Shown piece by piece: positions 2,749-9,145 of a DNA stretch of 10,747 nucleotides. The DNA lies in contig JAUXFG010000132.1 of assembly GCA_030620115.1 (NCBI GenBank), positions 1 to 10,747 of the forward strand, written 5' to 3'. Within the stretch, counting starts at the first letter, position 1. Every line of letters begins with the position of its first letter. Source of the stretch: Candidatus Fermentibacterota bacterium. GTDB taxonomy: Bacteria; JAFGKV01. A program made the translations under genes and the position numbers. The notes below the pieces were generated by a model. It had not been told where the DNA came from. It saw only the letters and a list, made by a program, of their open reading frames with translations, and searched no databases.

Positions 2749-5700
2749 TCAGGATTGCTCCTCTCGTGCCGAGAGCAAGTCCACCAACACCTGTGGTCTG
2801 ATCGGCTTGCTCAGGTACTCGTCCGCCCCCGCCTCGAGGCACCGCTCGCGATCTCCGGGCATGGAAAGCGAAGTGATGATGATGAGAGGGATGCCATCCA
2901 GATCAGACTCTGCCCTCATGCGCCGGATCGCTTCTGCGATATCGATATGCGGCACATCAATGTTTATGACAACTCCCTTGGGCCGTTCCTTTCGCGCGTA
3001 TGCCATCACCCCGGAAACATTACTTCGGTCCACAACTCGATAGCCCTCTCCCTCCAAAAAATCGATAGCGGCTTGACAGGTATTGTCCGCACCGAAGGAC
3101 ATCACCGTCACCACGCCCCTTCTCCCCCGCTCGCCCACTGCGATACGGCGCTCCCCAATACCTTCTTCCTCGTCACGCTCCAACGGCAGGGACACCGTGA
3201 ACCGGCTCCCCGCTCCTTCCTCACTCTCCAATCCAACACTTCCTCCATGTAGTGCGGTCAACCGATGGACCAGGGACAAGCCCAATCCCGTACCCTCATA
3301 CGCACGGGACAACCTGCTGTCCAACTGCACAAACGGCTCAAAAAGCCGCCCCATAGCTTCCTGTGAGATGCCGATACCCGTATCCCAGACCGTAAAATGA
3401 ACTGCTCCCTGATCCGTATCAGCTTCCACTTCAAGCCCAATGGACCCGCCCTTTGGTGTGAATTTCACTGCATTGCTCAAGAGATTCACCAGGATCTGCT
3501 TCAGCCCGCGCTCATCAGCCCGGATCGTCCGAATCGCGGGGCCGATTTGTGAGGATACTTGGAGCTCTTTCTTGTGGGCTCCTTGCTTCAAAAGGCCCAG
3601 GGCCGCCTGGCAGAGCGCCTCCACCGCGACTGGCCCGAACTCAAGTTCTACTTTTCCCGATTCGATCTTGGAGACGTCAAGAATGTCATTGATCAGGGCC
3701 AGCAGATGCCGCCCGCTTTCCTCAATCCGGCACAACGATTTGAGTTGTTTCTCATTCATCTCGCCGTATACTTGCTCCTGAAGCGCCTCTGATACACCCA
3801 GGATCGTATTCAGTGGCGTACGAAACTCGTGGCTCATATTCGCCAAGAATTCATCCTTCAGGCGCGAGGCTCTGGCCAGCTCGGTATTGGCCGCACGCAA
3901 TTCCGCCGTCTGTTCTGCGACGCGGTCAGCCAAAGAGGCCCGTTCAGACTCCAGCGCCTCCTCGGCTCGTTTGCGATCGAAGATCTCCTGCTGGGCTTGC
4001 TCGTATAGCCGGGCATTCTCAACGGCAATACCGGCCTGGTGGGCCAGCGATTGGAGGAGGGGCACATCGGACTGATCGAAAGCGTAGGATTGGTCACTCT
4101 CCACATCCAATACGCCAATAAAACGGCCCTTCACTATGATGGGAAGCTCGAGTTCGGAGCGAGTGCCCGGCAACTCCGGGGATGCAACGTAACAAGGTTC
4201 ACTGAGGACATCATTGACCAGTATCGGCTTGCCGGTTCTCGCGGCCTCTACTATGGGACTCGTCGTTGAATCGAGTGTGCCGATCAATTGGCCCGGGGTG
4301 AGCCGGATGTCGGCATCACCCACCGTGCTGCCGTCTCGAAAAACGAGCCGACTTCCCTCCAGCAGCGCAATGCCGACAAAGTATTGGCCAAAATGCGCCT
4401 TGGTTGTGTCCACAATCTGACGAAGTACCGCATCTACGCCGAGCACGGAGGTGACGGCACGCCCTACTTCGTTGATGGTCGCCAATGCCTGGGCTCTTTG
4501 CCTGGATTCCTTGAGCAACCGCTGATTCTCGAATCCGATGGCCACCTGGGCAGCGATGGTCGAGAACAGAGTCAAATCCTCCTGGTTGAACAGGTTCTCC
4601 TGCTCGTAGCTCTGAATGCCCATCACTCCGACCACCTTGTTCCGAACCAGAAGGGGAACTCCCATCCACGAGACGGCACGTTCACCCAGGAATTCTATCC
4701 CCTGCGCTTCATGAAAGGCGTGGTACTCCTGGGAGCTGTGGAGCAAGACCGGCTCCCGATTCCGGATGATCCAGCCGGTGAGACCCACATCCACGGCGCG
4801 GAACATGAGGGATTGACGCTTGCCGTGTTCGATGCTCAGGGCCAAAAACCACTGGCGGCTTCGCTCCTCATAGAGCGCGACATAAAAGTTCCCCGCATCG
4901 AAGAGCCTGCTGATCTGTTGGTGCACCACTCCCAGCAAATCGTCCAGCTCGAGCTCCGCAACGATCTGTCTGCCGATCTCATTGATGAGCGCCAACCGGG
5001 TGGCACGGTCTTTCAGCTTATCCTCGGCTCTCCTCCGCTGGGCGACCTCTTCCTGCAGATTCTTGTTCGCCTCAACGAGCTCCGCGGTCCGCTCCTGAAC
5101 CCGTATCTCCAGCTCATCATGCGCCCTGCGTAGCGCCTCCTCGGCCTTCTTGCGATGGGTGATGTCGCGGACCTGGAGCAGGACGGCCGGCTTGCCGGCG
5201 TAGTCGATGGGACCTGCCCGGATTTCTACAGGTACCGCGTAACCGTCACTGGTCCAACTGTATCCATCAACTTGACCATATTCGCCCTGCGACAATCCCG
5301 GAAAGTCACGCGCCACTTCTTCCCTCTTGTCAGGGGGAACAAGTTCGAGGACACTCTTCCCAATCAATTCATCGCTCGTCAGACCATGAAGCCGACATGC
5401 GGCGGAATTAACCTCAAGGACCGTGCCGTCGAGATCCTCTACGAACACGGCATCGGGGGAATTCTCGAACAGAGACCGGAATCTCTTCTCGCTTTCCCGG
5501 AGTAGCTTGTCCGTGTCTCGCCTCTCGATGGCTCGCTGGATCAACATCAGCAGCTGGCCCTCATCCCAAGGCTTCTGTATGTAGCCGTACGCGCCCAGAT
5601 TCACCGCCTCGATAGCAGACTCCTCCGTCGCGTGCCCCGTAATAAGGATGCATTCCGTATCCGGCGAATGTTTCCTCACCTCCCGCAGCACGTCCACGCC

Positions 5701-5886
5701 GGACATATCCCCCAACTGGAGGTCTATCAAAGCAACCGCCGGCTTCTCTTCCACAGCCTTCTCCATCCCATCCTTCCCCGTCCCGGCGACAATGGTAGAG
5801 TAGCCTCTCCTCTGGAGGACTCTTGTCAGAAGCTTCCGGATGATCTCTTCATCATCTACAATGAGAATCGTCGGGTTAGCCCGCAT
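2749..5886 (-). CDS. Hybrid histidine kinase, REC-PAS-GAF-GAF-HisKA-HATPase-pseudoREC (1045 aa)
   Basis: A large soluble hybrid kinase. REC1 (about 5-122; Asp11, Asp12, phosphoacceptor Asp55, Thr83, Lys105) is followed by PAS (about 131-245), a coiled coil, GAF1 (about 296-457), GAF2 (about 466-627), a second coiled coil and HisKA, with His686 in MSHEFRTPLN. HATPase_c has N-box Asn805, G1 DTGIG at 835-839 and G2 GTGLG at 865-869. The final receiver-like domain (about 924-1045) has lost its active site: the acidic pair is Phe931/Gly932 and the phosphoacceptor position is Asn975 (codon AAC), while Thr1005 and Lys1027 remain. It is therefore probably a pseudo-receiver. I chose the ATG at 5886 over the upstream ATG at 5940: it has GAGG 6 nt upstream, aligns with the 580-aa paralogue, and avoids running the gene through a likely -10 box. 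PAS and GAF ligands are not predictable. Confidence 0.95.
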   Translation of the reverse strand: MRANPTILIVDDEEIIRKLLTRVLQRRGYSTIVAGTGKDGMEKAVEEKPAVALIDLQLGDMSGVDVLREVRKHSPDTECILITGHATEESAIEAVNLGAYGYIQKPWDEGQLLMLIQRAIERRDTDKLLRESEKRFRSLFENSPDAVFVEDLDGTVLEVNSAACRLHGLTSDELIGKSVLELVPPDKREEVARDFPGLSQGEYGQVDGYSWTSDGYAVPVEIRAGPIDYAGKPAVLLQVRDITHRKKAEEALRRAHDELEIRVQERTAELVEANKNLQEEVAQRRRAEDKLKDRATRLALINEIGRQIVAELELDDLLGVVHQQISRLFDAGNFYVALYEERSRQWFLALSIEHGKRQSLMFRAVDVGLTGWIIRNREPVLLHSSQEYHAFHEAQGIEFLGERAVSWMGVPLLVRNKVVGVMGIQSYEQENLFNQEDLTLFSTIAAQVAIGFENQRLLKESRQRAQALATINEVGRAVTSVLGVDAVLRQIVDTTKAHFGQYFVGIALLEGSRLVFRDGSTVGDADIRLTPGQLIGTLDSTTSPIVEAARTGKPILVNDVLSEPCYVASPELPGTRSELELPIIVKGRFIGVLDVESDQSYAFDQSDVPLLQSLAHQAGIAVENARLYEQAQQEIFDRKRAEEALESERASLADRVAEQTAELRAANTELARASRLKDEFLANMSHEFRTPLNTILGVSEALQEQVYGEMNEKQLKSLCRIEESGRHLLALINDILDVSKIESGKVELEFGPVAVEALCQAALGLLKQGAHKKELQVSSQIGPAIRTIRADERGLKQILVNLLSNAVKFTPKGGSIGLEVEADTDQGAVHFTVWDTGIGISQEAMGRLFEPFVQLDSRLSRAYEGTGLGLSLVHRLTALHGGSVGLESEEGAGSRFTVSLPLERDEEEGIGERRIAVGERGRRGVVTVMSFGADNTCQAAIDFLEGEGYRVVDRSNVSGVMAYARKERPKGVVINIDVPHIDIAEAIRRMRAESDLDGIPLIIITSLSMPGDRERCLEAGADEYLSKPIRPQVLVDLLSAREEQS

Positions 5887-5928: not shown

Positions 5929-5956
5929 ATAATACTCCACCAGCGCCGGGAATCAA
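5929..5956 (-). promoter_or_regulatory. Probable sigma-70 promoter for the 1045-aa kinase gene
   Basis: Read on the minus strand, TTGATT (plus-strand 5951-5956) is followed after 16 bp by TATTAT (5929-5934). These match the TTGACA and TATAAT consensus at four and five of six positions. Transcription would begin around 5922, leaving a leader of about 36 nt before the ATG at 5886. The housekeeping-factor consensus is assumed to apply to this organism. Confidence 0.45.
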
Positions 5957-5979
5957 GTATCAACTTGACTCCACCCTCA

Positions 5980-6053
5980 GTCATTGCGAGGAGGGTAGCG
6001 ACGAAGCAATCTCATCCGCTCATCGAGATCGTCGCGCTACCGCTCGCGATGAC
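5980..6053. repeat. Long hairpin repeat, copy 1 (74 bp)
   Basis: The element starts GTCATTGCGAG and ends CTCGCGATGAC, its near reverse complement. A left arm of 34 nt and a right arm of 29 nt pair imperfectly (GGTAGCG with CGCTACC, TCTC with GAGA) around an 11-nt loop at 6014-6024. It sits between the leftward promoter and the rightward operon. Confidence 0.85.
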
Positions 6054-6067
6054 CAGCCCCACCACGT

Positions 6068-6140
6068 GTCATTGCGAGGAGACTAACGACGAAGCAATCT
6101 CATCCGCTCATCGAGATCGCCGCGCTACTGTCGCGATGAC
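6068..6140. repeat. Long hairpin repeat, copy 2 (73 bp)
   Basis: A near-identical direct copy of the element at 5980-6053, with the same 11-nt loop sequence. The left arm is altered (GAGACTAACGAC instead of GAGGGTAGCGAC) and no longer matches the CTAC of the right arm well, so this copy has lost some pairing. It is separated from copy 1 by 14 bp. Confidence 0.85.
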
Positions 6141-6154
6141 CAGCCCCACCCTCA

Positions 6155-6167
6155 GTGATTGCGAGGA
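6155..6167. repeat. Partial third copy of the long hairpin repeat
   Basis: GTGATTGCGAGGA matches the first 13 bases of the two upstream copies with one mismatch, then similarity stops. The same short lead-in (CCACCCTCA) precedes copy 1 and this fragment, so it looks like a truncated direct repeat. Confidence 0.6.
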
Positions 6168-6320
6168 AGGTCACGAAAGTGTAAAGTACTTCCTGGCCTG
6201 TCCTGAAACATCCCCCAATTCAAAATCCAGACTTGGCCGCAGGCCTCCCAGCTCTCCAGCGGCATTGCGCCAGACCCCGGCCGACGTCACATTGGGAGCA
6301 TGAAACGGAGAACTATATCT

Positions 6321-8693
6321 ATGACGCAGGCTGAACCTACCCAAGAGGGAATCTCGGAACACACGGCCCAACTCGAAGCACTACATCAGGTGGGGCTCGA
6401 GCTTGCCGCGGAGCTGGATCTGGATTCGCTCCTCCACTCCATCGTCTCACGAGCCATGGAGCTGCTTGATGGAGACGGTGGAGGGCTCTATCTCTACAGG
6501 CCGGATCGCGATGTTTTGGAATGGGTTGTGGGAATCGGCCCCGGGGCGCCGCCCAACGGCAGCGCCCTCCACCGGGGCGAAGGGCTCTCAGGGAAAATCT
6601 GGGAAACGGGGAAGCCGCTTCTCGTGAATGACTATCAGCGATGGAAGAAGCGAGCCCCAATCTACAATGATCTCCCCGTGGCGGCCATTGCGGGTGTACC
6701 GATCCAATGGGGTGAGGAACTGCTGGGGGTCCTCAATATCTCAGCGAAGAATCCAGGCTCTTTCTCATCTGACAACATCGAGTTATTGGGTCTATTCGCC
6801 ACCCAGGCCGCCATTGCCATCCGCAATGCCCGGCTTTTTCGCGAAGGGGAAAGACGGATCACCCAACTCGCCATCATCAACGAGATCGGCCGCGCCATCT
6901 CCTCTGCCCTGGAGTGGGGAGAACTGCTGGAGACGGTACATCAACAGGTCAGTCGCCTCTTTGACACCACCAATTTCTACATTGCCACCTACCAGGAAAA
7001 CCGCGACGAGTGGACCACGGTCCTCCGTCGGGAACATGGTATTCTGCAACCAAGTGCCACCTACAAGGTGGGCGCCGGCTTCACGGGCCACATCATCCGC
7101 AACCGGAAATCCCTGCTCTTTCGATCCAGCCGGGAAAATATTGCTTTCAAGAAATCGTTGGGACTCAAAAGTCTGGGGGAGCTCGCCCGCTCTTGGTTAG
7201 GCGTGCCCCTGGTCGCAGCCGACAAGGTAGTAGGCGTCATGGCCATCCAGAATTACGAGCAGGAGAACCTCTACGATGAAGACGATCTGGCCCTATTCAC
7301 CACCATTGCCGCCCAGGTAGCCATTGCCATGGAAAACCAGCGGCTCTTGGAGGAGACCCGCCATCGTGCCCAGGAGCTGGAGGTCATCAACGAGGTGGGT
7401 CGCGCTATCACCACCGTGCTTGATGTAGACGCGGTACTTCGTCGGATTGTAGACACCACGAAAGAACGTTTCGGCCAGTACTTCGTCGGCATTGCGCTGT
7501 TGGAGGGAGATCGACTGGTCTTTCAAGATGGAAGCACGGTGGGCAATACTGATGTTCGGCTCACGCGGGGACAATTGGTCGGGACACTTCAATCAACCAC
7601 CAGTCTTATCTCAGAGGCTGCGCGAACCGGCAAGCCGGTATTGGTCAATAATGTCCTCGATGATCAACGTTACCTTGCAGCTCCGGAACTGTTGGACACC
7701 CGTTCCGAACTGGACATGCCTATTGACGTCAAAGGCCATGTCATCGGGGTGTTGGGCATGCAGAGCGAGCGGCCGTTCGCGTACGACCAAGCAGACGCGG
7801 CTCTCCTCCAATCGTTGGCAAGCCAGGCCGGCGTGGCCATCGAGAACGCACGACTCTACGAAGAGGCCCAGCGAGAGCTCGCTGAACGCAAACGAGCGGA
7901 GAGCAAGGTGCAGAGGGCACTGAAAGAACTAGAACGCTCCAATACGGAATTGGAGCAGTTCGCCTATGTCGCGTCCCACGATCTGCAGGAGCCTTTGCGC
8001 AAAGTGCAGGCCTGCGGCGATCGGCTGTCGGTCAAGTATGCCCATGCCCTCGACGAGAGGGGGCGTGATTATATGGAGCGTATGACCGGAGCAGCCCACC
8101 GAATGCAAGCCATGATCAACGATCTGTTGGCCTTCTCCCGGGTCACGACGCGGGCGAAGCCCTTTATCTCGGTTGACCTCGGCGAGATCACGCGGGAGGC
8201 GGTCTCTGACCTCGAAATACGTGTGCAACAAACCGGCGGCCATGTAGAGATCGGCAATCTGCCCACCATCGAAGCGGATCGCATGCAGATGTGCCAATTG
8301 TTCACGAATCTCATAGGCAATGCCCTGAAATTCCATCGCGATGGCATCGCCCCCCATGTAAAGATCCATGGGGATTTTTTGGATGAGGATACCGACCCTG
8401 AAGTCACCTCAAGTCTGAAGGAACCCTGGATAGAACGCGAAAAAAGCTGCAGGATTGTGGTGGAAGACAACGGGATTGGGTTCGATGAGAAATTTCTCCA
8501 GCGGATCTTCCAGCCATTTCAACGACTCCATGGCCGCGGAGAGTATGAAGGAAGCGGCATTGGTCTTGCCATCTGTCATAAGATAGTAGTACGTCATCGC
8601 GGCAGCATCACCGCCGAAAGCACGCCCGGCCGTGGAGCAATCTTCATGGTAACCCTGCCGGTGAAACAATCCATGGAAGGAGATAATTCATGA
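6321..8693 (+). CDS. Triple-GAF sensor histidine kinase, Cph1-type kinase core (790 aa)
   Basis: Three GAF domains (about 17-173, 182-341, 353-513) lead through a coiled coil (ELAERKRAE...) into HisKA, with His553 in VASHDLQEPLRK. HATPase_c follows, with N-box Asn667, G1 DNGIG at 716-720 and G2 GSGIG at 744-748. The HDLQEPL box and the RLHGRGEYEGSGIGL segment are typical of the kinase class found with cyanobacterial-type phytochromes and Rcp1 regulators. However, the first cysteine is at residue 565, so no GAF can bind a bilin covalently or use Cys metal ligands. GAF2-GAF3 strongly resemble GAF1-GAF2 of the 1045-aa kinase. No membrane segment is visible. The start is ambiguous: the ATG at 6321 has GGAG 10 nt upstream, whereas the ATG at 6300 (seven residues longer) has GGGAG only 1 nt away. 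I prefer 6321. The gene overlaps the next by ATGA, so the two are probably cotranscribed and translationally coupled. Confidence 0.93.
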   Translation: MTQAEPTQEGISEHTAQLEALHQVGLELAAELDLDSLLHSIVSRAMELLDGDGGGLYLYRPDRDVLEWVVGIGPGAPPNGSALHRGEGLSGKIWETGKPLLVNDYQRWKKRAPIYNDLPVAAIAGVPIQWGEELLGVLNISAKNPGSFSSDNIELLGLFATQAAIAIRNARLFREGERRITQLAIINEIGRAISSALEWGELLETVHQQVSRLFDTTNFYIATYQENRDEWTTVLRREHGILQPSATYKVGAGFTGHIIRNRKSLLFRSSRENIAFKKSLGLKSLGELARSWLGVPLVAADKVVGVMAIQNYEQENLYDEDDLALFTTIAAQVAIAMENQRLLEETRHRAQELEVINEVGRAITTVLDVDAVLRRIVDTTKERFGQYFVGIALLEGDRLVFQDGSTVGNTDVRLTRGQLVGTLQSTTSLISEAARTGKPVLVNNVLDDQRYLAAPELLDTRSELDMPIDVKGHVIGVLGMQSERPFAYDQADAALLQSLASQAGVAIENARLYEEAQRELAERKRAESKVQRALKELERSNTELEQFAYVASHDLQEPLRKVQACGDRLSVKYAHALDERGRDYMERMTGAAHRMQAMINDLLAFSRVTTRAKPFISVDLGEITREAVSDLEIRVQQTGGHVEIGNLPTIEADRMQMCQLFTNLIGNALKFHRDGIAPHVKIHGDFLDEDTDPEVTSSLKEPWIEREKSCRIVVEDNGIGFDEKFLQRIFQPFQRLHGRGEYEGSGIGLAICHKIVVRHRGSITAESTPGRGAIFMVTLPVKQSMEGDNS
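8675..8682 (+). promoter_or_regulatory. Strong ribosome-binding site inside the end of the triple-GAF kinase gene
   Basis: GGAAGGAG lies 7 nt before the ATG at 8690, inside the last codons of the upstream kinase. With the ATGA overlap it indicates efficient, coupled translation of the regulator. Confidence 0.8.
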
Positions 8694-9145
8694 TCTCAAC
8701 TCACCAGCCGATCACTATCCTCATGGCAGAGGATGATCCCGACGATCGGCTCATGACAAAGGAGGCCTTCGAGGAGAATCGCCTGGCAAATGACTTGCGT
8801 TTCGTGGAGAACGGTGAAGAGCTGATGGACTATCTCTACCGGCGAGGCGAGTTCAGCGACCCGGACAAATCGCCATACCCGGGCCTGATACTGCTGGACC
8901 TGAACATGCCTCGCAAAGATGGGCGTGAGGCATTGGCGGAGATCAAGGCCGACGCGACCCTGCGTCGTATTCCTATTGTTGTGCTGACCACCTCAAAGGC
9001 CGAAGAGGACATCTTGCGTTCCTACGACATGGGCGTGAGCTCATTCATCACCAAGCCAATTACCTTCGAGGGGTTGGTAGACTTGATGAAGACCTTGGGC
9101 AAGTATTGGCTTGAGTTTGTTGCACTTCCTCCTCTACCGTCTTGA
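8690..9145 (+). CDS. Rcp1-type single-domain response regulator (151 aa)
   Basis: A stand-alone CheY-fold receiver: acidic Glu14/Asp15/Asp16, phosphoacceptor Asp70 in LLDLNMP, switch Thr100 in VLTTSK, and Lys122 in TKP. The insertion between strand 2 and strand 3 (DYLYRRGEF...PYPGLILLD) and the overall length are typical of the Rcp1 family, the partners of phytochrome-like kinases. No output domain follows, so it acts by protein contact or as a phosphoryl relay or sink. The ATG overlaps the kinase stop codon, making the triple-GAF kinase the obvious cognate partner. A short extra tail (FVALPPLPS) follows the last helix. The start is firm because of the ribosome site at 8675-8682. Confidence 0.95.
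   Translation: MISTHQPITILMAEDDPDDRLMTKEAFEENRLANDLRFVENGEELMDYLYRRGEFSDPDKSPYPGLILLDLNMPRKDGREALAEIKADATLRRIPIVVLTTSKAEEDILRSYDMGVSSFITKPITFEGLVDLMKTLGKYWLEFVALPPLPS

Follow-up and report, generated by a model that had tools for sequence, protein, structure and literature searches.

The locus described here raises the question of whether a hybrid histidine kinase that has lost the phosphorylation site of its terminal receiver carries a repurposed regulatory domain or a decaying one. The window, that is, the whole stretch of DNA analysed, comprises 10,747 nucleotides, and the kinase, with 1045 amino acids (aa), is encoded on the minus strand at 2749-5886. According to its open reading frame (ORF) and Pfam matches, the domains are arranged as REC-PAS-GAF-GAF-HisKA-HATPase-pseudoREC, and an alternative upstream in-frame GTG at 5940 would give an ORF of 1063 aa. 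The N-terminal receiver (residues 7-116; minus strand, as are all parts of this gene, 5539-5868) harbors all five catalytic residues (D11/D12, D55, T83, and K105) and served as an internal control. It is followed by a PAS domain (residues 135-242; 5161-5484), two GAF domains (residues 314-454 and 484-623; 4018-4947), a HisKA domain (residues 677-744; 3655-3858) with His686 (codon 3829-3831) correctly placed in the motif NMSHEFRTPLN, and a HATPase_c domain (residues 791-903; 3178-3516) with intact ATP-binding motifs. The terminal receiver (residues 924-1045; 2752-3117) matched Response_reg PF00072 weakly, with 54.3 bits against a cut-off of 30.2, and the match begins at profile position 13, leaving beta1 and the acidic pair unmatched.

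We compared this domain with the terminal receiver of the tandem paralogue, a 580-aa REC-HisKA-HATPase-REC kinase identified from its ORF, Pfam matches, and identities (minus strand, 282-2024), whose own terminal receiver is intact (Pfam match at 315-650; Asp507 codon at 504-506). The initial annotation had set Asn975 opposite Asp507 and Phe931/Gly932 opposite Asp463/Asp464, and both pairings were borne out by a gapless alignment with an offset of 468 and by the codons. The phosphorylated aspartate is replaced by Asn975 (AAC, GTT on the plus strand; 2962-2964), where the paralogue has GAC, and the acidic pair (GAT GAT) by Phe931 (TTC) and Gly932 (GGT) at 3091-3096. Ile983 (2938-2940) stands in place of the conserved D+8 Gly, and the D+5 position is also lost (His980). 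From the canonical phosphorelay set of DD, D, T, and K, three of five residues are thus absent, and T1005 and K1027 are present. As had also been claimed, the switch Thr, the conserved Lys, and a sequence block were kept: Thr1005 (2872-2874), with Ala replaced by Ser at T+1, Tyr1024 (K-3), which forms a Y-T pair with Thr1005, Lys1027, and Pro1028. The block itself, MPGDRERCLEAGADEYLSKP (residues M1009-P1028, from beta4 through alpha4 and beta5; 2803-2862), includes Tyr1024 and Lys1027 and is identical to the paralogue at 20 of 20 residues, despite 11 synonymous codon differences. The further claim that only the acids were lost held for the acids and for this block, but 25 of the 60 positions conserved in the subfamily were changed, without frameshift or stop, and omega outside the block was about 0.7. 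The losses were concentrated in the N-terminal half (19 of 34 conserved positions, versus 6 of 26 in the C-terminal half; Fisher p 0.017), where they affected the acidic loop, the ARNG-type beta2-alpha2 turn, and the phospho-Asp loop including the D+8 Gly.

The homologous hybrid kinases used for comparison came mainly from Chloroflexota. Asp was found at the equivalent of position 975 in all 47 homologous terminal receivers (45 aligned and two read by eye), so its loss is specific to the 1045-aa kinase. Within the 45 aligned sequences, position 931 was acidic in 45, position 932 in 44, and position 983 was Gly in 45. A sequencing or assembly error, or a local pair of frameshifts, would be suggested by the single transition that separates Asn975 from Asp; however, the 25 changed positions lie in a gapless alignment and a single open frame, and GC3 is equal in the domain (0.667) and in the remaining gene (0.678), so this explanation can practically be dismissed.

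Only three genomes in the collection represent the source class and phylum. The search for orthologues in two genomes of the same family returned none at E 1e-100 and only generic kinases at E 1e-40. An orthologue sharing the Asp loss was likewise absent from these two genomes, 400 Chloroflexota genomes, and 82 Chloroflexota genomes of one order, and the Chloroflexota matches that were followed up were intact receivers. The source genome yielded 57 receiver domains, three of which (approximately 5%) lacked the Asp by eye; the other two carry Gln (L150, G000:C160:11970-12308) and Ser (L151, G000:C91:4374-4709). This rate agrees with published values for bacterial receivers, of which 2.0% miss the D and approximately 6% are pseudo-receivers (PMC12632262), and with an overall share of approximately 4% aspartate-less receivers, enriched in Chloroflexi (PMC4395418). 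The Asp loss is therefore real and lineage-specific, and it belongs to a fairly common type of event. Several Chloroflexota homologues (L086, L087, L091, L093, L096, L097, L098, and L079) have two receivers after the HATPase domain, and in L096 the first of these lacks the acidic pair (IITSDQ), a layout resembling that of ShkA. As the nearest relatives of the kinase pair are found in Chloroflexota while its own phylum is represented by three genomes, horizontal transfer or a close relation of the two phyla is possible.

We also considered whether another acid, such as Asp977 (D+2) or Asp982, has taken over as the phosphorylation site of the domain. In favor of this, the 21 homologues of the tree set all have Gln in place of Asp977, and Thr1005 and Lys1027 are kept. 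However, receiver phosphorylation chemistry requires Mg2+, and both metal-binding acids are gone; moreover, alpha1, which forms the kinase-docking surface of receivers, has diverged strongly, with only 3 of 19 residues across beta1-alpha1 (926-944) identical to the 580-aa paralogue. A substitute acceptor is very improbable, and the terminal receiver of the 1045-aa kinase is almost certainly dead for phosphotransfer.

The intact sister kinase in the same cluster allowed the change to be dated relative to the duplication and assigned to one domain. Identities between the two kinases were 76% for the N-terminal receivers, 75% for HisKA, and 71% for HATPase, versus 45% for the terminal receivers. 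In a tree with 20 homologues (LG+G4, fixed topology), the branches of the kinase core were nearly equal, 0.228 for the 1045-aa and 0.203 for the 580-aa kinase, whereas those of the terminal receiver were 1.79 and 0.30, a sixfold difference; a single rate multiplier for core and receiver was rejected (LRT 41.9, 2 df). All catalytic residues were preserved in the N-terminal receivers, which share the fold and are presumably of equal age. The change was thus confined to one domain and, as judged from these alignments and branch lengths, the acids were lost after the duplication that gave rise to the neighbouring 580-aa kinase. When the terminal receiver was placed alone in a free tree, the placement failed (support 28, long branch); it is too divergent to be placed, and the evidence for the sister relation therefore comes from the kinase core and gene order.

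The gap between the sister kinases (2025-2748) contains an 89-nt unit and a 67-nt unit, each in three copies and partly inverted relative to each other (CTGTCATTCTGAGCGAC...GAGCGAAGAATCT), forming an intergenic, mobile-looking array. A second, different intergenic family (GTCATTGCGAGGAG...GACGAAGCAATCTCATCCGCTCATCGAGATCG) occurs in two to three copies at 5971-6176, between the divergent kinases. The divergent gene (6300-8693) encodes a 797-aa GAF-GAF-GAF kinase with 50% identity to residues 294-907 of the 1045-aa kinase; duplication is thus probably the source of the shared GAF pair as well. The start of the contig (window 1-233) falls inside another receiver gene.

The initial annotation had described a kept fold signature and proposed structure modelling, and the prediction agreed with that description. 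The AlphaFold2 model, built with 30 sequences from the window and the locus, showed a complete canonical (beta-alpha)5 fold for the terminal domain (pLDDT 91.1, pTM 0.84); since the alignment consisted of canonical receivers, this indicates fold compatibility rather than proof. The nearest solved structures were the canonical receivers DivK, PleD, and KdpE, and the comparison with PleD (2v0n_A) gave a VIA Z of 19.2 and an rmsd of 1.7 A over 122 residues. The Asp-lacking pseudo-receiver FrzS (2i6f) was found at rank 42 of the Foldseek matches. The best 50 structure matches were mostly canonical receivers; CikA and KaiA were absent from those listed, which does not exclude a likeness.

To estimate selection on the domain, nine taxa were analysed with a branch codon model in which all domains had the same branch times. 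On the branch of the 1045-aa kinase, the HATPase region had an omega of 0.11; within the receiver, omega was 0.62 in the N-terminal half and 0.25 in the C-terminal part. These values are rough, since synonymous sites are close to saturation. When the receiver was divided into block and remainder, residues 1009-1028 had an omega of 0.002, and the remainder 0.71. In the block, neutrality was rejected (LRT 14.6, 1 df) and the constraint equalled that of intact receivers; a common relaxation factor for block and remainder was also rejected (LRT 15.5), the block being less relaxed. The p-values for the single block are optimistic, since its conserved look was the reason for picking it and synonymous sites approach saturation; put plainly, the constraint is that all 20 amino acids are identical although 11 codons differ synonymously. 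These 11 synonymous differences in 20 codons also ruled out that the block was recently copied from the paralogue by gene conversion. The dN/dS check over residues 924-1045, proposed for orthologues in the initial annotation, was run here on this branch.

These results bear directly on early decay, in which the terminal receiver, redundant beside the intact sister, is drifting, and the block survives only for C-terminal folding or solubility, not for signalling. The receiver branch six times that of the paralogue, an N-terminal half with 19 of its 34 conserved positions lost, and the omega outside the block, which was indistinguishable from 1 (LRT 0.36), are all consistent with it. In contrast, neutral evolution of the whole domain was rejected (LRT 42.2, 2 df), the predicted fold is fully intact, and the block shows the same degree of constraint as its counterparts in intact receivers. 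Neither a stop nor a frameshift was found, although truncation would cost the kinase nothing; under full neutrality, a domain with 1.3-2.7 substitutions per codon, as fitted, would be stop-free with a probability of 0.013 to 0.0001. The initial annotation had named Asp in orthologues together with random substitutions elsewhere as a sign of decay, and half of that pattern was observed: relatives carry the Asp and many substitutions occur elsewhere, yet block 1009-1028 is constrained. The constraint speaks against a simple whole-domain decay, but relaxed selection across the larger part of the domain is compatible with it. A remnant that keeps the fold under relaxed selection is a serious rival, to which we assign a minor share of the probability. 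Since the acids are gone, the fold is predicted to be intact, and one segment is under purifying selection, conversion to a pseudo-receiver explains the data better than whole-domain decay. The proposed conversion stands in this form, except that the losses were not limited to the acids.

We consider the terminal domain to be an aspartate-less pseudo-receiver of a hybrid kinase, formed after duplication, which would be regulatory through its alpha4-beta5 face while phosphotransfer occurs in trans; the probability of this reading as a whole is roughly 0.6. The alpha4-beta5 block was held while the phosphorylation face and alpha1 changed freely and the kinase core evolved normally. The alpha4-beta5 face is the usual dimerisation and output face of receivers, and the retained block, together with the Thr1005/Tyr1024 pair, suggests that selection preserves the former output face. 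With one face under strong selection, the domain is probably a repurposed regulatory part rather than a dead remnant, and its retention for function is likely. More tentatively, with slightly less than even chances, its action would be exerted by the alpha4-beta5 face, either on its own kinase or on a partner.

As the HisKA motifs are intact, much as in the sister kinase, His686 would still autophosphorylate, and since its own terminal domain offers no phosphoacceptor, the phosphoryl group would be passed in trans. The most likely acceptor would be the terminal receiver of the 580-aa sister (Asp507), whose HisKA is 75% identical, or a nearby stand-alone receiver with intact acids (plus strand, 8690-9145; Pfam and alignment). 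The pseudo-receiver would then act as a phosphorylation-independent module through its conserved alpha4-beta5(-alpha5) face, either gating the core or holding a partner receiver. In a variant of this explanation, the domain only recruits, holding a partner response regulator or receiver near His686 without gating its own kinase. The retained alpha4-beta5 face, the intact receivers encoded next door, and the precedent of VirA, whose receiver has been proposed to recruit its regulator (PMC4705274), argue for this variant; however, the VirA receiver keeps its Asp, and we regard recruitment without gating as rather unlikely. Returning to the preferred pseudo-receiver, a more specific and speculative picture is that of a receiver caught mid-conversion after tandem duplication. 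The phosphorylation face and docking helix would have been lost in one lineage while the output face stayed fully constrained, and the kinase would signal only in trans into its sister, with the old face serving as a fixed or ligand-gated regulator. We think this picture somewhat less probable than not.

The working mode of bacterial pseudo-receivers is largely unknown (PMC12632262), and the 1045-aa kinase may show which surface selection keeps once phosphorylation is given up. The similar core of its sister also makes a swap of the terminal domains an available test. Feature by feature, the sequence of the terminal domain agrees with the definition of pseudo-receivers (PMC12632262) and with their aspartate-less subset, a known class. 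Several pseudo-receivers in the literature form separate small Pfam families without catalytic residues (PMC12632262). The profile search (E up to 0.001) returned only PF00072 and none of PF06490, PF21155, PF21194, PF21695, PF21714, or PF22368; by profile, with these six small families taken as a group, the domain does not belong to the CikA/KaiA families. The comparison with CikA and KaiA made in the initial annotation survives as an analogy of mechanism, while the PF00072 match and canonical receivers as the nearest structures speak against kinship. A literature search on degenerate receiver domains in hybrid kinases gave no matches.

Like the 1045-aa kinase, the histidine kinase CikA of Synechococcus ends in a pseudo-receiver. 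The CikA pseudo-receiver has been reported to inhibit autophosphorylation (PMC12632262). By analogy, ShkA of Caulobacter is the better mechanistic precedent: its pseudo-receiver (REC1) also lies within a hybrid kinase, keeps the kinase inactive until c-di-GMP binding (PMC7010744, PMC12632262), and has a functional alpha4-beta5-alpha5 face. However, ShkA has a c-di-GMP site with a DDR linker, and its layout, in which the pseudo-receiver sits between the HATPase domain and an intact receiver, was not found in the 1045-aa kinase, where the pseudo-receiver comes last (924-1045 of 1045). In VirA of Agrobacterium, the C-terminal receiver of a hybrid kinase is likewise thought to contact a partner regulator, but it keeps its Asp (D766), which the 1045-aa kinase lacks. 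One of the contact modes of ShkA, CikA, and VirA would be the most probable role. Like the aspartate-less and pseudo-receivers of PF00072 (PMC4395418, PMC12632262), the terminal domain combines the PF00072 fold with the absence of the site Asp and the acidic pair. It differs from them in its C-terminal position in a hybrid kinase, its origin after duplication beside an intact sister, and its sharply limited zone of constraint, and its value lies mainly in being an internally controlled example with that sister adjoining.
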